Shown here: positions 973-11,162 of the stretch, piece after piece
How positions within the stretch are numbered: the first letter of the stretch is position 1
Layout of the letters: each line of letters starts with the position of its first letter
Source: Paracoccaceae bacterium
GTDB taxonomy: Bacteria; Pseudomonadota; Alphaproteobacteria; Rhodobacterales; Rhodobacteraceae
Reading direction: 5' to 3'
Length of the DNA: 11,162 nucleotides
Assembly: GCA_007128865.1 (NCBI GenBank)
Contig: SKWP01000155.1
Location: 1-11,162, forward strand
Notes under the pieces: generated by a model
The model's input: only the letters and a program-made list of their open reading frames with translations
What the model was told of the DNA's origin: nothing
Databases searched by the model: none
Program-made: the position numbers and the translations under genes

Positions 973-986
973 TGACAACGCAAACA
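973..986. promoter_or_regulatory. Possible second, weak LacI-type operator
   Basis: TGACAACGCAAACA keeps the TGACA half and the central CG of the stronger site at 994-1007 and agrees with it at 9 of 14 positions; the right half is degenerate. The centres of the two sites are 21 bp apart, about two helical turns, which would place two bound dimers on the same face of the DNA. CCAATGACA (969-977) is also the exact reverse complement of TGTCATTGG (1003-1011), which overlaps the stronger site. It may be an auxiliary site or chance. Confidence 0.35.
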
Positions 987-992
987 ATTCGA

Positions 993-1020
993 TTGACAGC
1001 GGTGTCATTGGCGATACCTT
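993..1020 (+). promoter_or_regulatory. Candidate sigma-70-type promoter of the tctC-otnI operon
   Basis: A perfect -35 hexamer TTGACA (993-998) is followed after 16 bp by TACCTT (1015-1020), a poor -10. The position is sensible: 25 bp before the tctC start codon and overlapping the operator. The -35 is built from operator bases, so its match to consensus may be partly coincidental. Confidence 0.4.
994..1007. promoter_or_regulatory. LacI-type operator before tctC
   Basis: TGACAGCGGTGTCA is a near-perfect palindrome (one mismatched pair next to the central CG). It differs by one base from the perfect palindrome in the lacI/denD intergenic region at 9701-9714. Both have the central CG and TGA/TCA arms typical of LacI-family operators. 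The site overlaps a consensus -35 hexamer TTGACA (993-998), so binding would block RNA polymerase. A weak -10 candidate (TACCTT, 1015-1020) follows 16 bp later, and tctC starts 38 bp after the operator. I infer that the LacI-family protein encoded at 8555-9625 binds here. Confidence 0.75.
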
Positions 1021-1045: not shown

Positions 1046-2017
1046 ATGATTTCCAGATCGATCTCGACGGGCCTGATGGGGGCTGTGGCCGCCGCGGGTC
1101 TCTGCCTGACCGCCCAGACCGCGCAGGCCGGTGAATTCCCCGAGCGCGCGATCAACCTGATCGTGCCCTTCAATGCCGGCGGTGGCACCGACCTGCTGAT
1201 CCGCGGCTTTGCCCCGCATTTCGCCGAGGCGATCGGCGGGCAGGCTTTTGTGTCGAACATGGCGGGCGGCGCGGGGACTGTTGCGGCTTCGGCATTGGCG
1301 GGGCAGCGAGCGGATGGCTATCAGCTGGGCTATTTCTCGATCACCATCGCCACGATCCAGCCGCAAATCCGCGAGGTGCCCTACGGCCTCGACAGCTGGA
1401 CGCCGGTCTGCGCTGTCGCGGCCTCGCCGACCATGTTCTTCGTCGCTGCGGACAGCCCGTTTCAGTCGATGGATGATGTGGTGACAGCCGTGCGCGACAA
1501 TCCCGGCCAATATCTCTACGGCTCATCCGGGCCCGGGGCGATCACGCATTTGTCCATGGTCGCGGCCTTTGAGGGGCTGGGGCTGAGCGACCATGTCCGG
1601 CATCTGCCGTTCCAGGGCTCGGGCCCGGCGATGCAGGGCATGGCCGCGGGTACGATCCAGTTCTTCGGCGATACCGAGCTCTTGATGCAGGGCGGCGACC
1701 TGCGTCCGCTGATGGTGTTCAACGCCGAACGGCTGGAGCATCTGCCCGATCTGCCCACGGCGCGTGAAGTCGGCGTTCAGGCACCGCTGGACGAGCTGTA
1801 TCTGTGGGGCGGGCTGTTCGCACCCGCGGGTCTGGACCAGGCTGTGCGCGACCAGCTGTCCGAGGCCTGCCGCGTGGCGACCGAATCCGACGGTTTCCGC
1901 GAATTCGCCGACCGCACGGGCACGGTCCTGCGGTACATGGATGCCGATACCTTTGATGCGTTCTATCGCGAGGCGTTCGGCGCGGCCAGCACGCTGATCG
2001 AGGCCTCGGGCCTCTGA
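1046..2017 (+). CDS. tctC: TTT transporter periplasmic solute-binding protein (TctC/Bug family)
   Basis: This is the extracytoplasmic receptor of a tripartite tricarboxylate transporter: it binds a carboxylate in the periplasm and hands it to the TctAB membrane complex. The protein has 323 residues, normal for the family. It begins with a Sec signal peptide (MISRSIS, a hydrophobic core, and a likely cut after TAQA at residue 28), followed by the family signature INLIVPFNAGGGTD (residues 36-49). GSSGPGAITHL and LPFQGSGPAMQGMAAG also match the family. The start is fixed by the Shine-Dalgarno site AGGGAGGA at 1034-1041. An ATG at 1041 is followed at once by an in-frame stop. It is the first gene of the operon, behind a LacI-type operator. 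Such receptors vary widely in ligand; the neighbouring enzymes suggest a four-carbon sugar acid such as threonate, but this is inference. Confidence 0.93.
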   Translation: MISRSISTGLMGAVAAAGLCLTAQTAQAGEFPERAINLIVPFNAGGGTDLLIRGFAPHFAEAIGGQAFVSNMAGGAGTVAASALAGQRADGYQLGYFSITIATIQPQIREVPYGLDSWTPVCAVAASPTMFFVAADSPFQSMDDVVTAVRDNPGQYLYGSSGPGAITHLSMVAAFEGLGLSDHVRHLPFQGSGPAMQGMAAGTIQFFGDTELLMQGGDLRPLMVFNAERLEHLPDLPTAREVGVQAPLDELYLWGGLFAPAGLDQAVRDQLSEACRVATESDGFREFADRTGTVLRYMDADTFDAFYREAFGAASTLIEASGL

Positions 2018-2031
2018 TTCAGCCGAAAGGA

Positions 2032-2060
2032 CCGGGGCGCGCCGTCATCCCGCGCCCCGG
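2032..2060 (+). promoter_or_regulatory. Strong stem-loop between tctC and tctB
   Basis: CCGGGGCGCG (2032-2041) pairs perfectly with CGCGCCCCGG (2051-2060) around a 9-nt loop: ten base pairs, nearly all G-C. It begins 15 nt after the tctC stop. There is no T-run right after it, so it looks less like a full terminator than a partial terminator or an mRNA 3' stabiliser. Such an element could keep the binding protein more abundant than the membrane subunits, as is known for other binding-protein-dependent transport operons. The gap between tctC and tctB (94 bp) is by far the largest in this operon. Confidence 0.6.
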
Positions 2061-2111
2061 ACGTGTTTGCGAAAGGTCCCGCACGAGCGGCTCCGCACGA
2101 AAGGCCCTGCC

Positions 2112-2564
2112 ATGACCGCCCTGTTCGAACGCGCCGGCGTGACGCTGGCCTTGTTCCTGGCCTCTGGCGCAATGATGGCCAGCATTGGCTGGCGCGACAC
2201 GACGGGCATGCCCCCAGCCTTTTCGCCCGAGTTCTTTCCACGCATCGTCTTGTCGGTGCTGCTGGTGCTGACCGCGCTGGGTCTGGCGCTGGAACTGGCG
2301 CGCAAGGGCGGCTCCAGCGGCGGGCAGATACTGCGAGCGGCAGTCTTGGCGGCGGCGATGGTGGCGTTTGCATGGGCAATGACGCGCCTCGGCTTTTTCC
2401 TGACCGGGGCGGGGTTTTCGGTGCTGGCCCTGTTGCTCTTGGGCCTGCGCAACCCGCTGGTTATCGGTGCATTTGCACTGGGTGTGCCGGGGGCACTGGT
2501 CGGACTGTTCAATCATGTCCTGATCATGCCGCTGCCGACCTCGCCCTTCAGCCACATGTTCTGA
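2112..2564 (+). CDS. tctB: TTT transporter small membrane subunit (TctB family)
   Basis: This is a 150-residue inner-membrane protein. It is the poorly conserved small subunit that pairs with TctA in tripartite tricarboxylate transporters. Four hydrophobic stretches are visible: near residues 8-25, 43-62, 72-90 and 96-140, the last long enough for two helices. The loop FSPEFFPRIV after the first segment is typical of TctB. The start at 2112 is preferred because GAAAGG (2099-2104) is a suitable ribosome site and the length then matches the family. Upstream TTG/GTG starts (2067, 2063) would add a charged, unconserved tail overlapping the region just after the stem-loop. It lies 10 bp upstream of tctA. 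The assignment rests on hydrophobicity, size and position more than on motifs. Confidence 0.88.
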   Translation: MTALFERAGVTLALFLASGAMMASIGWRDTTGMPPAFSPEFFPRIVLSVLLVLTALGLALELARKGGSSGGQILRAAVLAAAMVAFAWAMTRLGFFLTGAGFSVLALLLLGLRNPLVIGAFALGVPGALVGLFNHVLIMPLPTSPFSHMF

Positions 2565-2574
2565 GGGGGCGCCC

Positions 2575-4071
2575 ATGCTGTCCACCTTCGGCGACTCACT
2601 GGCCCTGCTGACCAGCGTCGAGGCGATCCTGACCCTGATCCTGGGGACCATGCTGGGCATCATCCTGGGCGCGCTGCCGGGGATCGGGTCCACGGTCGCG
2701 GTGGCGATCATCCTGCCCTTCACGCTGGGCATGTCGCAGGCCCCGGCAGTGCTTCTCTTGCTCGCCGTCTATGCGGGGTCCGTCTATGGCGGCTCGATCT
2801 CGGCCATTCTGATCAACACGCCCGGCACCCCGCAATCGGCGGCGACCACCTTTGACGGCTATCCGATGGCGCAGCGCGGCGAGGCAGGGCGCGCGCTGGG
2901 CTGGGCCACCATGGCGTCGGTCGCCGGGGGGATCGTCTCGGTCCTGCTGTTGATCCTGGCAGCACCCCAACTGGCCCGGCTGGCGCTGAATTTCGGCCCG
3001 ATCGAGACCTTCGGGCTGCTCCTGCTGGGGCTGACCTGCATCGTCGCGGTCTCGTCGGGTGACATGATCAAGGGGCTGATCGCAGGCGCGCTGGGCCTAT
3101 TGCTGGCCATGGTGGGCGGTGATCCGATCACCGGCACGCCGCGCTTCACCTTCGGGGATTTCCGCCTGATCGCCGGCTTCGACCTGCTGGCCATCGTGAT
3201 CGGGGTCTTCGCCTTGTCCGAGGTGTTGTTGCGTGTGTCCGAAAAACTGTCAGGCACCGCGGAATTCGTCTCGTTCAAGGGGATCGTCCTGCCCCGTCTG
3301 GCCGAGTGGAAAGGCCGCCTGAAGGGGCTGGCCAAGTCCATCGCGCTGGGTTGCGGGATCGGGGTTCTGCCTGGCACGGGCGCGGCTACCGCCGCCTTCG
3401 TCTCCTATGCCGAGGCGCGGCGCAGCTCGCCCAATTCCGGGAATTTCGGCAAGGGCGAGCCTGACGGAATCATCGCCTCCGAGGGCGCCAACAATGCCGT
3501 CACCGGCGGCGCGCTGGTCCCCACGATGGCGCTGGGCATCCCCGGCGATGCGGTCACCGCCGTCATGCTGGCCACGCTGACCCTGCACGGGATCACCCCC
3601 GGTGTGCGGCTGATGCAGGACAACCCGACCCTGATCGGCGCGATCTTTGCGGGGCTGATGGTGATCAACCTGCTGCTGCTGCCGCTGGGCATGCTGGCCA
3701 GCGCGATGGCCGCGCCGCTACTGCGCATGCGCGAGGCCTTCATGCTGACTGCGATCACGCTTCTGTGCTTTGTCGGGGTCTATTTCGTCCGCGGCAACCC
3801 GTTTGATCTGTGGGTCATGGTCGCAGCCGGGATCAGCGGGTTCATCCTTCGCCGGCAGGGGTTCCCAATGGCGCCGCTGGTGATCGGCATGGTGTTGGGC
3901 CCGACGCTGGAGATGACGCTCAGGCAGGGGCTGATCATCACCAATGGCAGCTTCGGCGCCTTTTTTGCCAGCCCCATCGCAGCGACGCTGATCGTGATCG
4001 CCATCGCAACGCTGTGCTGGCCCTTGCTGAGTGCTGCAAGAGGCCGGTTCCGGTCACGGAGGGGGGCATGA
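2575..4071 (+). CDS. tctA: TTT transporter large membrane subunit (TctA family)
   Basis: This is the transport channel of the tripartite tricarboxylate transporter, probably driven by an ion gradient. It has 498 residues, normal for TctA, and is hydrophobic throughout with about a dozen predicted membrane segments. Conserved family motifs are plain: LPGIGSTVA (34-42), YGGSISAILINTPGTP (71-86), TTFDGYPMAQRGEAGRALG (91-109), GVLPGTGAATAAF (263-275), EGANNAVTGGALVP (303-316) and MALGIPGDAVTA (318-329). The paired LPG-x-G motifs at 34 and 265, each followed by a glycine-rich hairpin with a proline, show the two-fold internal repeat of the family. The ribosome site GAGGGGG lies at 2562-2568. Its TGA overlaps the ATG of the hydrolase gene (ATGA, 4068-4071), so the two are probably translationally coupled. 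Confidence 0.96.
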   Translation: MLSTFGDSLALLTSVEAILTLILGTMLGIILGALPGIGSTVAVAIILPFTLGMSQAPAVLLLLAVYAGSVYGGSISAILINTPGTPQSAATTFDGYPMAQRGEAGRALGWATMASVAGGIVSVLLLILAAPQLARLALNFGPIETFGLLLLGLTCIVAVSSGDMIKGLIAGALGLLLAMVGGDPITGTPRFTFGDFRLIAGFDLLAIVIGVFALSEVLLRVSEKLSGTAEFVSFKGIVLPRLAEWKGRLKGLAKSIALGCGIGVLPGTGAATAAFVSYAEARRSSPNSGNFGKGEPDGIIASEGANNAVTGGALVPTMALGIPGDAVTAVMLATLTLHGITPGVRLMQDNPTLIGAIFAGLMVINLLLLPLGMLASAMAAPLLRMREAFMLTAITLLCFVGVYFVRGNPFDLWVMVAAGISGFILRRQGFPMAPLVIGMVLGPTLEMTLRQGLIITNGSFGAFFASPIAATLIVIAIATLCWPLLSAARGRFRSRRGA

Positions 4072-4922
4072 GCCAGACTGCGATAACGGCAGCCGAAGGG
4101 CCGGTGCGGACGGCACGCCTGACCCTGCAGGTGCGGCGGGCCGGCGATGGACCGGCGCTGCTGTTCCTTGGCGGATCGAATACCGATTTCCGGCTGCGCT
4201 GCGCGGTGATGGGTTCGGACCTGCCGCAGCATTTTGACGTCATCACCTACGAGCCTCGTGGACTGGCCCGCTCGGACGCACCGCCGGGCAACTGGACCAT
4301 GCGCGACTATGCCGAAGATGCGGTCGGCCTGCTGGACGCGCTGGACATCGACCGGGCCTTTGTGCTGGGCGAATCCTTTGGCGGCATGACCGCGCTGCAC
4401 ATGGCCGCGCTGTCCCCCGACCGGGTGCAGGCGCTGGCGGTCATGGCGGCCACTGCCGGCGGTGTGCTCGGCGGGTCATTTCCGATCCAGGACTGGCTGC
4501 CCCTGCCCCCTGATCAGGCCGCGCTGCAGGCCCTGAGCGTGCAGGACCTGCGCTTTGCCGCGTTTCAGGCAGCCGATCCGCAAGCCGCCGCCGCCCGCCA
4601 CGCCCAGCGCATCACCCAGGAAACCCTGTTTCGCGCCTCCCCGAAAAACGCCGCAGGCTATCCCCGACTGCTGGCCGCCCGCGCAGGGCACGACGCTGTG
4701 GCCCTGCTGCACCGAATCACCTGCCCGACGGTAATCATGGCCGGCCGCCATGACGGACAGGCCCCGCTGGCAGCCGTGGCCCGGCTGGCCGGGGCGTTAC
4801 CACAGGCTGAATTCCGGATCTTCGATGGTGGGCATGGCTTTGGCTTCGCCACGCCAGAGCCTGTCCATCACCTGATCACAGCCTGGACCGGGCAACATAA
4901 CCGACAGGAGGCCACCGCATGA
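4068..4922 (+). CDS. Alpha/beta hydrolase, possible sugar-acid lactonase or esterase
   Basis: This 284-residue cytoplasmic protein has the alpha/beta-hydrolase fold. The nucleophile elbow LGESFGGM gives Ser103, the acid is probably Asp229 (MAGRHDGQAP) and the base His256 (FDGGHGF), so the catalytic triad is complete. YEPRGLARSD (61-70) resembles the DxRGxGxS loop of the 3-oxoadipate enol-lactonase/haloperoxidase-like group. FLGGSNTD (33-40) takes the place of the usual HGxxG oxyanion loop. No signal peptide is seen. The start follows GGAGG at 4058-4062. It overlaps tctA before it and ltnD after it by ATGA, so it is locked between importer and first dehydrogenase. That position suggests it opens a lactone (such as threonolactone or erythronolactone) or an ester of the imported acid before oxidation. 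The substrate cannot be read from the sequence. Confidence 0.87.
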   Translation: MSQTAITAAEGPVRTARLTLQVRRAGDGPALLFLGGSNTDFRLRCAVMGSDLPQHFDVITYEPRGLARSDAPPGNWTMRDYAEDAVGLLDALDIDRAFVLGESFGGMTALHMAALSPDRVQALAVMAATAGGVLGGSFPIQDWLPLPPDQAALQALSVQDLRFAAFQAADPQAAAARHAQRITQETLFRASPKNAAGYPRLLAARAGHDAVALLHRITCPTVIMAGRHDGQAPLAAVARLAGALPQAEFRIFDGGHGFGFATPEPVHHLITAWTGQHNRQEATA

Positions 4923-5833
4923 CATCCCGCCCCCGCACCGGCATCTTCGGCCTTGGCTCCATGGGCTATGGCATGGCGCAATCACTATTGCGCGCCGGGC
5001 ATGAGCTGGCGGCCTTTGACATCGCCGCCGAACCCGTCGCCCGGATCGTGGCCGAGGGGGCGCAGACCGGCAATCCGGCCGATCTGGCGCCCGGTCTCGA
5101 TCGCGCCGTGATCGTGGTTCTGAACGCCGCGCAGACCCGCGCCGTGGTGCTGGGCAACGATCATGCGCCCGGGCTGATCGACCATCTGCGCCCCGGCGCC
5201 ACGATCATCGCCTGCGCCACCGTCGCGCCTGACGATGCCCGCGCCCTGGCCGCGACCGTTCAGGCGCGGGGCCTGCATTATCTCGACGCACCGATCTCGG
5301 GCGGGGCGGCCAAGGCGGCGGCAGGCAAGCTGTCGATCATGGCCTCGGGCAGCCATGCGGCCTTTGCCGGCGCGCGCCCCGCGCTCGACGCCATGGCCGA
5401 GGTGGTGTTCGAGATGGGGCCGGAACCCGGGCAAGGCTCGGCCATGAAGGCAGTTAACCAGATGCTGGTCGGCATCCAGATCGCGGCCATGGCCGAGGCG
5501 ATGACCTTTGGACTGTCGCAGGGGATCGACGTCGCGCGCAGCTACGAGGTGATCACCCGCTGTGCCGGCAATTCCTGGGCGTTCGAAAATCGCGGCCCTC
5601 ATGTCATCGACGGCGACTATCGCCCGGCCTCGGCCGTCGATATCTGGCCAAAGGATCTGGGAATCGTGCTGGATGCCGCCCGGGCGGCGAAATTTTCCGC
5701 CCCCCTGACCGCGACGGCGCTACAGCAATTCCTGGCCGCATCCGGTTCGGGCCTGGGCAGTCAGGATGACGCGGCGGTGGCAAAGGTCTATGCCCGCAAT
5801 GCCGGGCTGACCCTGCCCGAGAGCGACCCGTGA
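4919..5833 (+). CDS. ltnD: L-threonate dehydrogenase-like (3-hydroxyisobutyrate dehydrogenase family)
   Basis: This NAD(P)-dependent beta-hydroxyacid dehydrogenase has 304 residues. In tetronate clusters with DUF1537 kinases, LtnD oxidises L-threonate at C2 to 2-oxo-tetronate. The Rossmann motif is GLGSMGYGMA (11-20). Asp34 at the end of the second strand (AAFDIA) suggests NAD rather than NADP. The substrate-binding motif is DAPISGGAAKAAAGKLSIM (123-141). The catalytic lysine is Lys177 with Asn180 (AMKAVNQ), and WPKDLG (243-248) is the conserved C-terminal helix motif. The start has an excellent AGGAGG site at 4906-4911 and overlaps the hydrolase stop. The same family includes tartronate semialdehyde reductase and 3-hydroxyisobutyrate dehydrogenase. 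The threonate call depends on the adjacent otnK-otnC-otnI genes, and activity on another tetronate is possible. Confidence 0.85.
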   Translation: MTSRPRTGIFGLGSMGYGMAQSLLRAGHELAAFDIAAEPVARIVAEGAQTGNPADLAPGLDRAVIVVLNAAQTRAVVLGNDHAPGLIDHLRPGATIIACATVAPDDARALAATVQARGLHYLDAPISGGAAKAAAGKLSIMASGSHAAFAGARPALDAMAEVVFEMGPEPGQGSAMKAVNQMLVGIQIAAMAEAMTFGLSQGIDVARSYEVITRCAGNSWAFENRGPHVIDGDYRPASAVDIWPKDLGIVLDAARAAKFSAPLTATALQQFLAASGSGLGSQDDAAVAKVYARNAGLTLPESDP

Positions 5834-5846
5834 CGGAGGGCCAGGC

Positions 5847-7085
5847 ATGATTTTGGGTGCCATCGGCGATGACTTCACCGGATCGTCGGATCTGGGCCTG
5901 ACGCTGTCGGCGGGCGGGATGCGGACGGTGCAATATGTCGGCATCCCCTCGGGCCCCGCAGCACCTGAGGTCGAGGCCGGGATCGTCGCGTTGAAGACCC
6001 GCTCGGTCCCGGTGGATCAGGCCTTGGCGCAGTCGCGCGCTGCCCTGAACTGGCTGCGCGCGCAGGGGGCGCGGCAGATCCTGTTCAAATACTGCTCCAC
6101 CTTCGATTCGACGCCCGAGGGGAATATCGGCCCGGTGATCGACGCCTTGCTTGAGGACCTGGGCGGAGCAGGCGGGGTCGTGGTCTGCCCGGCCTTTCCG
6201 GCCACCGGGCGGCGGGTGTTCATGGGGCATCTGTTCGTGGGCGACCGGTTGCTGAACGAAAGCGGGATGCAGAACCACCCGCTGACCCCCATGACCGACC
6301 CTGATCTGCGCCGTTTCCTCTCCCATCAGACCCGCCACGACGTCGGCCATCTGCCGCTGTCGGACCTGCGTGCCGGTCAGGGTGCGGCACGCATGGCGGC
6401 CGAGGTGGCGGCCGGCCGTCCACTGGTCGTCTGCGATGCGATCGAGGATTCCGACCTGCTCGCGCTGGCCCCGGCCTGCGCGTCTGCGACCCTGATCACC
6501 GGCGGCTCGGGCATCGCGCTGGGCCTGCCCGCGTTGCACGGCTTTTCCGCGGCCCGCGCGCCTGCGTGGCGCGGCGCTGGGGGGCGCCCTGCGCTCTGCC
6601 TCTCGGGATCTTGTTCCACCGCCACACGGACGCAGATCGTGGCGCATCGCGCAGCGGGCGGGGCGCAAATGGCGCTCGACATCCCCGCCGTAGTCGAAGG
6701 GCGCGCAGATGCGGGCGCACTGATCGACTGGGCACTGGGCGCGGGCGATCTGCCGCTGATCTATTCCAGCGACGACCCCGAACAGGTCCGCCAATGGCAG
6801 CAGCGCTACGGGACCGAAACCGTTGCCACCGCCATCGAGGCCATGTTCGGCCAGCTTGCGGCGCGCGCCGTCGCGGCCGGGTTCGGGCGGCTGATCAGCG
6901 CAGGGGGCGAAACCTCGGGCGCCGTAGTCGGCGCGCTGGGCCTCGATGCGCTCGAAATCGGACCGGCCATCGACCCGGGCGTGCCGGCGCTGCGGGCAAG
7001 CGGGCGTGATCTGGTCCTGGCGCTGAAGTCGGGGAATTTCGGCGCCGAGGACTTCTTTCGCAAAGCCTCCGGGGTGCTGTCATGA
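5847..7085 (+). CDS. otnK: 3-oxo-tetronate 4-kinase (four-carbon acid sugar kinase, DUF1537)
   Basis: This kinase has 412 residues, close to the roughly 420 usual for DUF1537. It phosphorylates the C4 hydroxyl of 3-oxo-tetronate using ATP. The N-terminal substrate-binding domain starts with GAIGDDFTGSSD (4-15), the family signature. KYCSTFDST (81-89) and LNESGMQNHPLTPMTD (136-151) also line this domain. The C-terminal nucleotide-binding domain has GGSGIA (219-224), GSCSTATRTQI (254-264), GGETSGAVV (353-361) and LKSGNFG (393-399). The ribosome site GGAGGG at 5835-5840 supports the start. It follows ltnD by 13 bp and overlaps otnC by ATGA. The related D-threonate/D-erythronate kinases share this fold. 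Association with an isomerase and an aldolase-type decarboxylase, rather than with PdxA2, favours the 3-oxo-tetronate version. Confidence 0.93.
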   Translation: MILGAIGDDFTGSSDLGLTLSAGGMRTVQYVGIPSGPAAPEVEAGIVALKTRSVPVDQALAQSRAALNWLRAQGARQILFKYCSTFDSTPEGNIGPVIDALLEDLGGAGGVVVCPAFPATGRRVFMGHLFVGDRLLNESGMQNHPLTPMTDPDLRRFLSHQTRHDVGHLPLSDLRAGQGAARMAAEVAAGRPLVVCDAIEDSDLLALAPACASATLITGGSGIALGLPALHGFSAARAPAWRGAGGRPALCLSGSCSTATRTQIVAHRAAGGAQMALDIPAVVEGRADAGALIDWALGAGDLPLIYSSDDPEQVRQWQQRYGTETVATAIEAMFGQLAARAVAAGFGRLISAGGETSGAVVGALGLDALEIGPAIDPGVPALRASGRDLVLALKSGNFGAEDFFRKASGVLS

Positions 7086-7741
7086 CCGGCTTGCAAGGGG
7101 ATGATCTGACCCTTGCGCAGGCACTCTGCGCGCATGGCGCTTCGCTGTTTCAGCGCGGGCTGACCGGGGGCAGCAGCGGCAACATCACCGCGCGCCTGTC
7201 CGACGGGCGGTTTCTGGTCTCCCCCACCGGCCTGTCGCTGGGCGCGATGACCCCGGACGACCTGGCCGTGCTGGCCCCGGACGGCACCCATCTGGTTGGC
7301 CGCAAGCCCAGCAAGGAATGGCCGCTGCATCAGGCGTTCTATGCCACCCGACCCCAGACCGGCGCGGTCGTGCATCTGCATTCGACCCATGCCACCGCCT
7401 GGTCGCTGATGGACGGGCTCGACCCTGGCAATGTCCTGCCCCCGATCACCCCTTACGCGATCATGCGGCTGGGCAAGGTCGCACTCTTGCCTTTCTTCGT
7501 GCCCGGTGACGCCGCGATGGGTGACGCAGTGCGTGGGCTGATGGGGCGCCACGCCGCCGTTTTGCTGGCCAATCACGGCCCGGTGGTCTCGGCCCGGACG
7601 CTCGATGATGCGGTCAACGGGATGGAGGAATTCGAGGAGACCGCGAAACTCCTGATCCTGACCCTGGGCCAGCCGCGCCGCCTGCTGACCGCAGACGAGG
7701 TCGCAGCACTCGTCGCCCGCTACAATGTCGAATGGGACTGA
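7082..7741 (+). CDS. otnC: 3-oxo-tetronate 4-phosphate decarboxylase (class-II aldolase/adducin family)
   Basis: This 219-residue metal-dependent enzyme belongs to the fuculose-phosphate aldolase family. In this pathway it decarboxylates 3-oxo-tetronate 4-phosphate to dihydroxyacetone phosphate and CO2. GGSSGNITAR (29-38) is the phosphate-binding loop and VSPTG (46-50) a second binding strand. Glu79 (KPSKEWPLH) is the catalytic acid/base candidate. His98 and His100 (VHLHSTHA) plus His165 (LANHGPV) are the zinc ligands, corresponding to the Glu and three His of FucA. All key residues are present. The start overlaps the otnK stop, and the Shine-Dalgarno is weak, so translation is probably coupled to otnK. 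Aldolase activity cannot be excluded by sequence alone, but the gene set fits the decarboxylase. Confidence 0.92.
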   Translation: MTGLQGDDLTLAQALCAHGASLFQRGLTGGSSGNITARLSDGRFLVSPTGLSLGAMTPDDLAVLAPDGTHLVGRKPSKEWPLHQAFYATRPQTGAVVHLHSTHATAWSLMDGLDPGNVLPPITPYAIMRLGKVALLPFFVPGDAAMGDAVRGLMGRHAAVLLANHGPVVSARTLDDAVNGMEEFEETAKLLILTLGQPRRLLTADEVAALVARYNVEWD

Positions 7742-7743
7742 TC

Positions 7744-8520
7744 ATGGACCGCCCCCGCTTTTCCGCCAATACAGGCTTCCTGTGGACCGATCGCCCCTTT
7801 CCCGACCGGCTGCGCGCCGCCGCGGCGGCAGGTTTCGACGCGGTCGAGTTCCATGACGAGGCGCAGCGCCATGACCTGGCCGAAATCCATGCGATCCTGC
7901 AGGAAACCGGGCTGCCGGTCTGCGGGCTGAACGTGCGGATGGGCGGGACGGCGGGCTGCGCATCCCTGCCCGGGGCCGAGGATCAGGCCCGGCGCGATGT
8001 CGATGACGCGCTGCGGGTCGCCGAGGCGCTGCGCGCTGGCGCAGTGCATGTTCTGGCCGGTCGGGTGGCCGATGGCGGCGACCGGGCGCAATACCTGCGG
8101 GTGCTGCGCCATGCGCTCGATGGTCTTGATCCCTCGGGCGAGCGGGTGATCCTGATCGAACCGATTTGCCGTGCGGCGATGGCTGATTACGCCCTGCCCG
8201 ACATCGCGACGGCGGCGGCGATCCTGGCCGAGATCGACCATCCGCGCCTGAAGATCATGTTCGACTGTTTCCACATTGCCATGCAGGACGGCGATGCCTT
8301 GGCTGCCTTTGCTGCCCATGCCGAGCAGATCGGGCATGTGCAGATCGCCTCGGTCCCGGGTCGGAACGAACCCGGTGATAAGGACCGGCTGGACCTGCCG
8401 ATACTGATCGCAGCGATGCAGGGGCTGGGCTACAGTGGCGCCTTCGGCTGCGAATACCACCCGCGCGGCCGGGTCGAGGACGGGCTGGCCTGGCGCCGGG
8501 GTTTCGAGGCGGTGCACTGA
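7744..8520 (+). CDS. otnI: 2-oxo-tetronate isomerase (hydroxypyruvate isomerase family)
   Basis: This 258-residue TIM-barrel protein is of the xylose isomerase-like/AP endonuclease 2 superfamily, Hyi branch. OtnI converts 2-oxo-tetronate to 3-oxo-tetronate, linking the dehydrogenases to the kinase. The opening PRFSANTGFLWTDRPFPDR matches the first strand and helix of the family. Likely metal-site residues are Glu139 (LIEP), Asp174 and His177 (FDCFH), Gln200 (GHVQIAS) and Glu237 (GCEYHPRG). The two glutamates are the expected acid/base pair. I chose ATG 7744, three bases after the otnC stop, because the family starts close to PRF. An in-frame ATG at 7732 would add MGLI and overlap otnC. It is the last gene of the operon. 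Hydroxypyruvate isomerase is the alternative, but glyoxylate carboligase and its partners are absent here. Confidence 0.9.
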   Translation: MDRPRFSANTGFLWTDRPFPDRLRAAAAAGFDAVEFHDEAQRHDLAEIHAILQETGLPVCGLNVRMGGTAGCASLPGAEDQARRDVDDALRVAEALRAGAVHVLAGRVADGGDRAQYLRVLRHALDGLDPSGERVILIEPICRAAMADYALPDIATAAAILAEIDHPRLKIMFDCFHIAMQDGDALAAFAAHAEQIGHVQIASVPGRNEPGDKDRLDLPILIAAMQGLGYSGAFGCEYHPRGRVEDGLAWRRGFEAVH

Positions 8521-8560
8521 CGGGGCGAAAGAACCCCGCGCCTGAGCGCCGCCCTCAGGC
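8521..8560. terminator. Tandem stem-loops between convergent otnI and lacI
   Basis: Two hairpins fill the 34-bp gap between the convergent genes. The first is CGGGG/CCCCG (8521-8525 with 8534-8538, loop of 8). The second is GCCTGAG/CTCAGGC (8540-8546 with 8554-8560, loop of 7), which includes the lacI stop codon. Neither has a clear T-run, so intrinsic termination is only suggested. The position fits a bidirectional terminator. Confidence 0.45.
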
Positions 8561-9625
8561 CGTCGCGCCCGGGATCAGACGAAAGCCCACATTCTGCACC
8601 GGATCGATGGCCAGACCATGCAGACGGTTCAGAACGCAGCTCGCCGCCTGTTCGCCGATCAGCACCCGGCGCGATTCGATCGTGGTCAGCGGCTGGGGCA
8701 GGGCCTGCCCGATCGACAATCCGTTGAACCCCGCCAGCGCCAGATCGGCGGGCACAAGCAGCCCCTGCGCCATGGCATGGAACATCCCGCCCACCGCCAT
8801 GTCGTCATTCGAATAGCAGACCGCCAGACCACCGACGGACAGACGGTCCAGCAACTGCGCTGTCCCCTTGCGCCCCAGACCAACCGAGGACGGGCCGGGG
8901 AGCAACAGCATCGCCTCAAGCGTCAGGCCGGCTTCAGCCAGCGCCGCGCAGAACCCGTCGCGCCGGGCCCGGGCGCGCGGATCGACCGATATGTCATGAC
9001 CCAGATAGGCCATCCGCCGGTAACCCCGCTGCAGCAGGAACCGTGCCATGTCCTGTCCGGCCGCGCGCTGCGAAAGGCCGACGGCGACATCCACCGGCGC
9101 GCGGTCGATATCCATGATCTCGACCACCGGCAGGCCCGAGGCCGCCAGCATCCGCCGACTGCCCGGAGTGCTTTCGGCGGGTGCCAGCACCAGCCCGGCC
9201 GGACGCCAGGTCAGCAATTCCGTGATCAGGCGTTCCTCATGGGCGGGATCGTAGTTCGAAACGCCCAGGATGACATGGTACCCATCCTGTTCCAACCGGG
9301 TCTCCAACCCCTTCAGAACATCGGCAAACACACTGTTGGACAGCGACGGCAGCACCACCGCCACCTGCCGCGACTGCCCCCCGGCCAAGGTCCCGGCCAG
9401 ACGGTTCGGCACATAGTTCAGGGCCTGTGCCGCTGCCTGTACGCGCGCCAGGGTGTCCTGCGCGACAAGGGTCGTTCCGCGCATTGCCCGGCTCGCCGTG
9501 ATCTCGCTGACGCCGGCGATGCGGGCGACCTGTGCCAGCGTCGGACGGGTATCATCCGGTAAGGCTGCGGGCACAGGCGCTCCCAAATCGCGGGTATTCA
9601 AACGGGGCCGGTCATCTTGGGTCAT
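8555..9625 (-). CDS. LacI-family transcriptional repressor (GntR-like subgroup) of the tetronate genes
   Basis: This is a cytoplasmic DNA-binding repressor of 356 residues. The helix-turn-helix is TLAQVARIAGVSEITASRAM (29-48). The hinge helix follows in YVPNRLAGTLAG (71-82), with Leu76 in the place of the minor-groove leucine that sits over a central CG. The rest is a periplasmic-binding-protein-like effector domain (VAVVLPSLSNSVFADVLKGL and GFNGLSIGQALPQPLTTIES are recognisable). The ATG at 9625 has no visible Shine-Dalgarno and gives an unusually long tail before the HTH. A GTG at 9574, preceded by GGGAG (9584-9580), would give 339 residues, closer to family length. It is convergent with otnI and divergent from denD. 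Two near-identical palindromes, before tctC and before denD, are its probable operators. The inducer is probably a tetronate or a pathway intermediate. Confidence 0.92.
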   Translation of the reverse strand: MTQDDRPRLNTRDLGAPVPAALPDDTRPTLAQVARIAGVSEITASRAMRGTTLVAQDTLARVQAAAQALNYVPNRLAGTLAGGQSRQVAVVLPSLSNSVFADVLKGLETRLEQDGYHVILGVSNYDPAHEERLITELLTWRPAGLVLAPAESTPGSRRMLAASGLPVVEIMDIDRAPVDVAVGLSQRAAGQDMARFLLQRGYRRMAYLGHDISVDPRARARRDGFCAALAEAGLTLEAMLLLPGPSSVGLGRKGTAQLLDRLSVGGLAVCYSNDDMAVGGMFHAMAQGLLVPADLALAGFNGLSIGQALPQPLTTIESRRVLIGEQAASCVLNRLHGLAIDPVQNVGFRLIPGATA

Positions 9626-9696
9626 GGTGCGGCATTACGTCGGGGTCTGTCTGCGTTCCTGCCATGCTGCCGCAACATCGCGCAAAAGGCAAAGCC

Positions 9697-9725
9697 ATAT
9701 TGACAGCGCTGTCATGATTTGCCAG
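9697..9725 (-). promoter_or_regulatory. Weak candidate promoter of lacI
   Basis: On the minus strand CTGGCA (9725-9720) and CAATAT (9702-9697) are spaced by 17 bp and match the -35 and -10 consensus at 4 of 6 and 3 of 6 positions. The operator at 9701-9714 would then sit between them, implying autorepression. The match is weak and the call is tentative. Confidence 0.25.
9701..9714. promoter_or_regulatory. LacI-type operator in the lacI-denD intergenic region
   Basis: TGACAGCGCTGTCA is a perfect 14-bp palindrome with a central GC/CG core. It matches the site before tctC (994-1007) at 13 of 14 positions. It lies 36 bp before denD and about 75 bp before the annotated lacI start, between divergent genes, so one bound dimer could repress both. 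TTGACA (9700-9705) at its left edge resembles a -35 for denD, as at tctC, but I see no good -10 at the right distance. Confidence 0.8.
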
Positions 9726-9749
9726 CCTCAGGCCAATATGGGGGGTAGC

Positions 9750-10736
9750 ATGCGCGTTGTCGTGACCGGCGCAGCCGGGTTCATAGGACAGATGGTGGTG
9801 CGGGCGCTGGCAGCGCGGGACATGCTGCGGCTGGACGGAACCGAGCGTCGGATCGCGGCAATCCTGGCCACCGACATCGCCGAGGCACCGCTGCACGCCC
9901 TGGCCGCCACGCACCGCCGCATTCACGCCCTGCCCGGTACGCTGGACGACCCCGCTGTCCTGAACCGGATCGTGGCGGATGCGCCCGATCTGATCATCCA
10001 TCTGGCCGCCGTCGTCTCGGGTCAGGCCGAGGCTGACTGGGATCTGGGCATGGCGGTCAATCTGCGCGGCACGCTGGCACTGATCGAGGCCTGCCGCCGG
10101 ATGGGCCGCCCGCCGGTCGTGGTCTTCGCCTCTTCTGTGGCGGTGTTTTCCTGCGCCGACAACGACACGATCACCGAGGATACGCTGCCCGCCCCGCGCT
10201 CGTCCTACGGCACGCAGAAGCTGATGGGCGAGCTGGCGTTGCGCGATGCCAGCCGGCGGGGCTTCCTGAAGGCGCGCAGCTTGCGCTTTCCGACCATCTC
10301 GGTCCGCCCAGGCGCGCCAAATCGCGCGGCCTCCAGTTTCGCCAGCGGGATCATCCGCGAGCCGCTGGCCGGACAGCCCGCCGCACTCCCGGTCCCGCGC
10401 GATCTGCGGCTGCATCTGGCCTCGCCCGGCAAGGCGCTGGAGTATACGCTGCAGGCCTGCGGGCTCACGCAGGACGCGCTGGGCGGCGAGACCACGCTGA
10501 CCCTGCCGGGGATCAGCGTCACGGTGGGCGGGATGATCGACACGCTGGCGCAGCTTGCTGGGCCAGCGGCCGCGGCCCATATCACCTCTCAGCCCGATAC
10601 AGGGATCGCAGCCATCGTCGCCTCATGGCCCGGCAAGATTCGCTGCCCGCGCGCCGCGGCGCTGGGCTTCACACCCAATACCGGAATTGCGGAACTGATC
10701 GAGGAGCATCGGAACCGCATGAACAGCGCGGCCTGA
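9750..10736 (+). CDS. denD: D-erythronate dehydrogenase-like (NAD-dependent epimerase/dehydratase family, extended SDR)
   Basis: This 328-residue extended short-chain dehydrogenase has the Rossmann motif TGAAGFIG (6-13). Asp42 (LATDIA) would bind the NAD ribose. LIIHLAAVVSGQAEADW (81-97) is the NAD-binding strand and loop. Ser128 (FASSVAVF), Tyr153 and Lys157 (SSYGTQK) form the catalytic triad. LRFPTISVRPGAPNRAAS (178-195) matches the DenD-type substrate loop. Characterised DenD enzymes oxidise D-erythronate at C2 to the 2-oxo acid, which OtnI, OtnK and OtnC then process. ATG 9750 starts directly at MRVVVTGAAG as in the family; ATG 9738 would add MGGS. The leader has a G-rich run (9740-9745) as ribosome site. 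It is divergent from lacI, behind the perfect operator, and 48 bp before the TRAP gene. Nucleotide-sugar epimerases are the alternative family role, but the context argues against it. Confidence 0.87.
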   Translation: MRVVVTGAAGFIGQMVVRALAARDMLRLDGTERRIAAILATDIAEAPLHALAATHRRIHALPGTLDDPAVLNRIVADAPDLIIHLAAVVSGQAEADWDLGMAVNLRGTLALIEACRRMGRPPVVVFASSVAVFSCADNDTITEDTLPAPRSSYGTQKLMGELALRDASRRGFLKARSLRFPTISVRPGAPNRAASSFASGIIREPLAGQPAALPVPRDLRLHLASPGKALEYTLQACGLTQDALGGETTLTLPGISVTVGGMIDTLAQLAGPAAAAHITSQPDTGIAAIVASWPGKIRCPRAAALGFTPNTGIAELIEEHRNRMNSAA

Positions 10737-10784
10737 AGCTGCGTGACTGACAGGATCAATAGGATCACAAGGGAGGAAGACCTC

Positions 10785-11162
10785 ATGAAGCATACCCTGC
10801 TCGGCGCTGTTGCCGGTATCGCCCTGATCGCCGGGGCGCATGCCCAGGCGCAGACCAATGTCGTGGTCGGGCACGCGCTGTCTACCACCTCGCATTACGG
10901 TGTCGGCGCGCAGGCCTTCATCGACACGCTGACCGAACTTTCGGGCGGCGCCTTCACCGGCGAGCAGGCCCCGGCCAGCCAACTGGGCGGCGAACGCGAC
11001 ATGATCGAGGGGCTCCAGATCGGCTCGCTGGACCTGGTCATCACCTCAACCGGACCGCTGGGCAATTTCGTGCCCGAAGTTCTGGGCCTGGACCTGCCTT
11101 TCCTGTTCCGTGACTATGCCCATGCCCGTACCACGCTGGACAGCGAAATCGGGCAGGAACTG
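10785..11162 (+). CDS. dctP: TRAP transporter periplasmic solute-binding protein (DctP family), 3' end beyond window
   Basis: The first 126 residues of a TRAP receptor are visible, which binds a carboxylate in the periplasm and delivers it to a sodium-driven DctQM permease. MKHTLLGAVAGIALIAGAHA is a Sec signal peptide, with the cut probably after AHA or AQA. The mature part has VVGHALSTTSHYGVGAQAF, then a GGERDMIEGLQIGSLDLV stretch and TGPLGNFVPEVLGLDLPFLF, all hallmarks of DctP. The conserved ligand-binding arginine lies beyond the edge. The ribosome site GGAGGA (10772-10777) is strong. No new operator is visible in the 48-bp gap after denD, so it is probably co-transcribed with denD. D-erythronate or a related tetronate is the likely ligand by context only. 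The membrane subunits are expected just downstream. Confidence 0.93.
   Translation, partial: MKHTLLGAVAGIALIAGAHAQAQTNVVVGHALSTTSHYGVGAQAFIDTLTELSGGAFTGEQAPASQLGGERDMIEGLQIGSLDLVITSTGPLGNFVPEVLGLDLPFLFRDYAHARTTLDSEIGQEL

Follow-up and report, generated by a model that had tools for sequence, protein, structure and literature searches.

A probable LacI-controlled regulon for four-carbon sugar acids, apparently fused from two modules that are separate in relatives

Results

Our analysis concerns an 11,162-nucleotide stretch of DNA from a Paracoccaceae bacterium (assembly GCA_007128865.1, contig SKWP01000155.1), called the window below, which carries two groups of genes for the predicted use of tetronates, four-carbon sugar acids, together with a gene for a LacI-family regulator. 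The window is the entire contig G000:C216 of a 2.84 Mb genome bin that is 66.86% complete and lies in 491 contigs. The first unit, on the plus strand, opens with a complete importer of the tripartite tricarboxylate transporter (TTT) type, all three subunits of which score above their Pfam cut-offs: the solute-binding protein TctC (1046..2017; PF03401, 136.5 bits), the small membrane subunit TctB (2112..2564; PF07331, 54.2 bits; the open reading frame, ORF, opens at 2067 and the checked ATG is at 2112) and the large membrane subunit TctA (2575..4071; PF01970, 473 bits). An alpha/beta hydrolase follows (4068..4922; PF00561, 92.5 bits), for which we propose an esterase or lactonase activity, and then a predicted dehydrogenase of the L-threonate family, LtnD (4919..5833; NF043037, 394.9 bits against a cut-off of 350), the 3-oxo-tetronate kinase family member OtnK (5847..7085; NF043035, 508.4 bits, cut-off 350), OtnC (7082..7741; NF043034, 264 bits, cut-off 250) and an OtnI-like isomerase (7732..8520), whose best match is NF043033 and which was aligned to YgbM (PDB 1k77). 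The regulator gene lies on the minus strand (8555..9625; PF00356, 45.3 bits with a cut-off of 27; PF00532, 89.6 bits with a cut-off of 22.2). Divergent from it runs the second unit, again on the plus strand, with a predicted dehydrogenase of the D-erythronate family, DenD (9750..10736; NF043036, 357.1 bits, cut-off 325), and DctP, the solute receptor of a tripartite ATP-independent periplasmic (TRAP) importer (10785..11162; PF03480, 69.7 bits over 98 residues), a gene cut by the contig end. Every gene that an earlier sequence-only reading had named within 1046..11162 is present, with LtnD, OtnK, OtnC and DenD above their curated cut-offs and the OtnI-like protein below; the LacI gene, inside the same range, had gone unnamed, and the hydrolase had been listed without a role. 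At gathering score, Rfam gave no match in the window.

Both units are preceded by a palindrome of the form TGACAGCG(G/C)TGTCA. Operator 1, TGACAGCGGTGTCA (994..1007), lies 38 bp before the TctC start, and operator 2, TGACAGCGCTGTCA (9701..9714), lies between lacI and denD, with the DenD start 35 bp further on; each overlaps a TTGACA hexamer, an arrangement that fits repression. The pattern TGACANCGNTGTCA occurs at two places in the 2.84 Mb partial genome, both in the window, with no occurrence of the reversed pattern used as a control. In the same-genus relative G295 (99% complete, probably Rhodobaculum claviforme, Paracoccaceae) it again has exactly two occurrences, one in front of TctC and one in front of DenD, and the control again gives none. 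Gene spacing and the two operators point to two operons, as the sequence-only reading had proposed. Since the same operator precedes both units and is found nowhere else in the partial genome, our results support the further claim that the two units form one regulon, in which the LacI protein would bind both palindromes and presumably repress from them.

For comparison we mapped 106 OtnK loci from 295 genomes of the family, one genome per genus, of which 98 have OtnK above the cut-off; G125:C12, which exceeds it only when neighbours in its frame are counted, was left out. To these were added the loci with a close TctC (at least 66% identity, 7 of the 295 genomes, window counted), genomes of the window's own genus (TctC at E 1e-60 in 2 of 6), one Sulfitobacter locus (L038) that was the sole match of a LacI search, and four plasmid loci (L206, L207, L208 and L209), which serve as examples and not as counts, 2 of 10 DenD records and 2 of 5 TctC records having been examined. 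G035 is taken as Dinoroseobacter shibae.

A close TctC is found in eight genomes, namely the window's own, G295 (84% identical to the window protein), G268 (71%), D. shibae, G212, G250, G185 and G112. The hydrolase gene lies directly after TctA in six of the seven loci where this position is visible, D. shibae being the exception; the G295 contig ends after TctC, and that of G212 ends inside the hydrolase gene. LtnD comes next in the window, in G268, where TTT importer, hydrolase, LtnD and OtnK form one unit, and in D. shibae, whose plasmid pDSHI05 (L206, 8980-12824) has LacI beside TctC-TctB-TctA-LtnD, with neither DenD nor the core enzymes. LtnD is not next in G250, G185 and G112, where the TTT-hydrolase units are separate from LtnD-OtnK-OtnC-OtnI units (L056, L064 and L111) that hold no importer gene, the TRAP genes near L056 and L111 being on the other strand. 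DenD occurs in none of the eight close-TTT units, three of which (G295, G212 and G268) are truncated where their contigs stop, and the G268 genome has no DenD above the cut-off (best E 3.1e-14). OtnK above the cut-off is present in 6 of 7 genomes with a close TctC versus 92 of 288 others (one-sided p 0.006; 5 of 6, p 0.016, without the window), and the lone genome without it, G212, is 62% complete. Both the placement of LtnD and this co-occurrence with OtnK connect the LtnD side of the pathway with the TTT importer and the hydrolase beside it. As a separate observation, D. shibae carries this entry arm on a plasmid and its OtnK-OtnC-OtnI core on the largest contig of G035 (L131), with no LtnD in the 20 kb taken there.

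A close DctP is likewise found in eight loci: the window, G295 (L181), Sulfitobacter L038, G140 (L055), G148 (L074), Thalassococcus L207, Paracoccus L208 and G212 (L223). DenD lies directly before DctP in seven of the eight, and in G148 it is 4.6 kb off on the other strand. The truncated window DctP is 80% identical over 126 residues to the full G295 protein, after which DctQ and DctM follow; the window contig stops inside DctP. A structural model of G295 DctP built with a 41-row alignment reached a mean predicted local distance difference test score of 87.3 (a model without the alignment, at 33.6, was discarded), and it places 4nq8, 4pak, 4pdd, 4p9k and 4pdh at Foldseek ranks 1-6 and VIA-align ranks 3-7, at 44-50% identity, the next Foldseek match being 4xeq at 34-37%. 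G148 DctP is nearest by sequence to 4nq8, 4pdd, 4pdh and 4p9k. We take D-erythronate and pantoate to be ligands of 4nq8, 4pdd, 4pdh, 4p9k and 4pak; a literature search on the ligands of these nearest receptor structures returned no relevant paper. Apart from this, the DctM region of Sulfitobacter L038 (5987-7264) is not open in one frame, which may be real or an assembly error.

The operators of these relatives fall into two classes. D-class sites are single copies of TGACAGCGCTGTCA about 50 bp before DenD, seen in the window, G295, Sulfitobacter L038 and Thalassococcus L207. T-class sites are two or three TGACAACGTTACCA-like sequences, 20-22 bp apart, before TctC in all six close-TTT loci outside the genus (D. 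shibae, G250, G185, G112, G212 and G268), each of which has at least one exact TGACAACGTTACCA copy; one G112 site reads TGACAACGCTGTCA, near the D-class. In a tree of LacI proteins the window's regulator pairs with that of G295 (100/98) and lies near those of Sulfitobacter and Thalassococcus (82/66, weak), and the six LacI proteins beside close TTT modules outside the genus form a separate clade (99/97). D-class sites track the LacI clade in four loci. The TctC genes of the window and of G295 carry a D-class site, unlike those of all six relatives outside the genus, and 21 bp upstream of operator 1, on the plus strand, lies TGACAACGCAAACA (973..986), a probable relic of a T-class LacI site; TGACAACG occurs once in the window, at this relic, with 0.22 occurrences expected. 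Read most simply, these sequences suggest that the LacI once belonging to the TTT module was lost and that the DenD-type LacI took over the module's promoter by a change of operator, the exchange presumably running in that direction.

Discussion

How could two importers of different families come to serve one catabolic core? We propose, with somewhat better than even confidence, that the window holds a single LacI-controlled regulon for four-carbon sugar acids, fused from two modules that lie separately in relatives. In this proposal the first module (TctC-TctB-TctA-hydrolase, followed here by LtnD) would import L-threonate and possibly also an ester or lactone of this acid, to be opened by the hydrolase; its LtnD would oxidise L-threonate to a 2-oxo-tetronate. 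The second module, DenD with the DctP-type TRAP importer, would take up D-erythronate and probably other tetronates too, and DenD would oxidise D-erythronate to the other enantiomer of the 2-oxo-tetronate. From there both products would follow one common route, via the OtnI-like isomerase, OtnK and OtnC, to dihydroxyacetone phosphate, and LacI would bind the two near-identical palindromes and repress both units until a compound of the pathway releases it.

A number of observations weigh against this proposal. A consensus promoter scan of the window gave no sigma-70-type match, leaving the TTGACA hexamers without an accepted second hexamer. The operator pattern occurs in 6 of the 12 genomes searched and so is not confined to this system, and it lies outside DenD or TTT units in G132, G178, G254 and G140 and at a second place in Sulfitobacter. 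Moreover, no D-class site precedes DenD or DctP in four of the eight DenD-TRAP loci (Paracoccus, G140, G212 and G148), and at two of the loci, L208 (by its FCD annotation) and L055 (as read from the start of the sequence), a GntR-type regulator stands in place of LacI. The OtnI-like protein reaches only 200.3 bits against the NF043033 cut-off of 325; the OtnI homologues of relatives also fall below it in four of four cases (191, 240, 268 and 261 bits), which argues that this cut-off is unsuited to the group.

Other points bear on how tightly each importer belongs to its dehydrogenase. On the TTT side, LtnD-family proteins are present in 56 of the 107 mapped loci, and a TTT importer, of the close or the G125 type, precedes LtnD, directly or with only the hydrolase between, in two of those 56 (L079 and L100). 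The link between TTT importer and LtnD weakens in more distant relatives: of nine more distant TctC matches in eight genomes, only that of G125 adjoins LtnD, and the TTT genes of a Martelella plasmid (L209, TctC 39.6% identical) have neither LtnD nor DenD alongside. On the TRAP side, LtnD lies directly behind DctM in four of the seven assessable loci (G295 L181, L038, G140 L055 and G148 L074), one of them in the window's own genus; the other three have the core without LtnD (L207 and L208) or neither (L223). The four TRAP-side LtnD proteins score 360.8-391.3 bits, above the cut-off of 350, and form one clade with that of L078 (SH-aLRT 98, in a quick tree without bootstraps). The window LtnD falls outside this clade and has its top identity, 67%, with the D. 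shibae protein of the TTT unit. The window's bin gave a single OtnK match in all and no second LtnD (next best 98.5 bits); given a completeness of 66.86% and a contig that stops inside DctP, an extra LtnD may lie behind the TRAP genes. We had also considered DenD and TRAP as a general pair and rejected it: none of the 30 best-scoring DenD-family loci, which represent other DenD subtypes than the window's and two of which have shorter flanks, has a close DctP within about 1.5 kb. Taken with the seven of eight loci where DenD adjoins DctP and the four of seven with LtnD behind DctM, this suggests that the TRAP importer goes with the window's type of DenD and not with DenD alone.

The sequence-only reading had matched each importer to one dehydrogenase, and that claim survives in part. 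The two arms do exist as separate modules, as in the TTT-LtnD unit of D. shibae, the G268 unit and the DenD-TRAP-OtnK-OtnC-OtnI units of Thalassococcus and Paracoccus, which lack LtnD. Strict pairing is not supported, given the LtnD genes behind DctM and the 30 DenD loci without a close DctP.

A different account is one in which the TRAP importer carries both D-erythronate and L-threonate while the TTT importer and hydrolase bring in a third compound, an ester or lactone yielding L-threonate, so that no stereospecific pairs of importer and dehydrogenase exist. We regard it as a serious competitor that falls somewhat short of an even chance. It would account for the four LtnD genes behind DctM, all above the LtnD cut-off, and for the hydrolase after TctA in six of seven visible loci; but DenD-TRAP units without LtnD exist, and the TTT-LtnD arrangements without a hydrolase in D. 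shibae and, with a more distant TTT importer, in G125 argue that a TTT importer can serve LtnD directly. The two importers might instead be redundant, both taking up one tetronate but differing in affinity or in the conditions under which they work, the adjacency of dehydrogenase and importer being an accident of gene order. What precedes LtnD does vary, from a close TRAP importer (L055 and L074) to another TRAP importer (L067, L072, L073 and L092), a TTT importer (L079 and L100) or, in many loci, no importer at all. The absence of DenD from all eight close-TTT units, three of them cut by contig ends, and its position directly before DctP in seven of eight close-TRAP loci nevertheless make redundancy unlikely in our judgement. 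Finally, the contig could join two unrelated pieces by an assembly error, as the incomplete bin of 491 contigs and a fused transposase-ATPase ORF at the left end might suggest. Against this, the match lists give the window TctC on two contigs and the hydrolase likewise, the longer contig having 22,996 bases, and the two window operators match each other and those of G295, and we consider such an artefact very improbable.

The role of the hydrolase deserves separate comment. Assignment as the 3-oxoadipate enol-lactonase PcaD was tried and dropped, TIGR02427 scoring 105.7 bits against a cut-off of 255.85. The protein belongs to the alpha/beta-hydrolase families; its best NCBIfam matches are enol-lactonases, all below their cut-offs, and its best PDB matches are the esterase Est1. 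Ser103, Asp229 and His256, which we take to be the expected catalytic triad, stand in columns at least 90% conserved among 17 aligned rows, one of which (L211:10876-11712) was wrongly cut from a longer frame, the hydrolase match there being in ORF 10876-12672. The lists of TctC and hydrolase matches, 120 rows each, have 13 contigs of equal size in common, one of them the window's, equal size being no proof of the same contig; among the matches listed, no equal-sized contig is common to the DctP list and either of these. The recurrence of the hydrolase after TctA gives a hint that an ester or lactone is used as well, and we propose, no more firmly than that, that the enzyme opens such a compound inside the cell.

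One candidate source is vitamin C. In plants, ascorbate gives rise to oxalyl-L-threonate and to the cyclic form of this ester, according to the accessible part of PMC6099474. The TTT-hydrolase arm could then salvage oxidised vitamin C, with TctC importing oxalyl-L-threonate, cyclic oxalyl-threonate or threonolactone and the hydrolase yielding L-threonate for LtnD, an idea that we put forward as a long shot. Our literature search found the oxalyl-L-threonate ester described from plants only, and if the idea is true the hydrolase would be a bacterial enzyme for that ester. A search for a threonate TTT importer found no paper, most subscription journals being outside its reach.

The core chemistry is ordinary; what looks new is the addition of a second importer accompanied by a hydrolase, and the takeover by one repressor. 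The tetronate pathway, from LtnD or DenD through OtnI and OtnK to OtnC, was reportedly set out by Zhang et al. in 2016, a study cited in PMC12540250 and PMC10580937. The window shares its enzyme families and their order of reactions to dihydroxyacetone phosphate, and adds two importers of different families and a hydrolase, with OtnI under its curated cut-off. The four-step pathway is also described in the accessible text of PMC12540250. As far as the accessible part of PMC10580937 goes, Brucella likewise places both dehydrogenases on one core under one repressor, but does so in one operon with a DeoR-family repressor and one MFS gene, whereas the window has two units, a LacI-family regulator and both TTT and TRAP importers.

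Three related loci are also close. The D. shibae plasmid shares the TTT importer with LtnD (TctC, WP_012187495, 65.6% identical to the window's) and differs in having no hydrolase, no core and its own LacI with tandem TGACAACGTTACCA sites. On plasmid pS3C of Thalassococcus sp. S3 (L207), LacI stands beside DenD-DctP-DctQ-DctM-OtnK-OtnC-OtnI; the DenD-TRAP order, the identical operator and the related LacI recall the window, whereas the core is joined to the TRAP unit, which has no LtnD and no TTT genes. G295 has LacI-operator-TctC and operator-DenD-TRAP-LtnD-OtnK, with the same operators and the sister LacI, but its LtnD and OtnK lie in the TRAP unit, and its contig ends before any TctB, TctA or hydrolase gene.

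More generally, the catabolic core is known while its importers are poorly assigned, and to our knowledge few ligands of TTT receptors have been established. From this locus and its relatives a substrate can be predicted for one TTT receptor, and the hydrolase becomes a candidate esterase or lactonase in the use of L-threonate. They also offer an example, legible in the sequence, of how the repressor of one module may gain control of another when the operator changes.

Several minor observations were made along the way. Near OtnK, 29 of the 107 mapped loci (L119, L128, L129, L134, L136, L142 and others) have a protein from one cluster resembling isopropylmalate or tartrate dehydrogenase. A Gfo-type oxidoreductase, an AidB-like lactonase and an importer of the TTT or TRAP type are frequent companions, and LtnD is mostly missing; this is possibly another entry into the OtnK-OtnC core. 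In G298, a further genome of the genus, an OtnI-like gene (L183, 6800-7624) shares 62% identity with that of the window and is the sole tetronate gene in the 15 kb taken, and the OtnK match of L144 (G102:C786) contains one in-frame TAG. At the left end of the window, the minus-strand ORF 115-777 is an in-frame fusion between a fragment of an IS5-family transposase (profile positions 27-179 of 289) and the C-terminal portion of a GlnQ-type ABC ATPase. Nothing else in the 2.84 Mb partial genome matched the transposase fragment, and the fusion is either an insertion remnant or an assembly fault.

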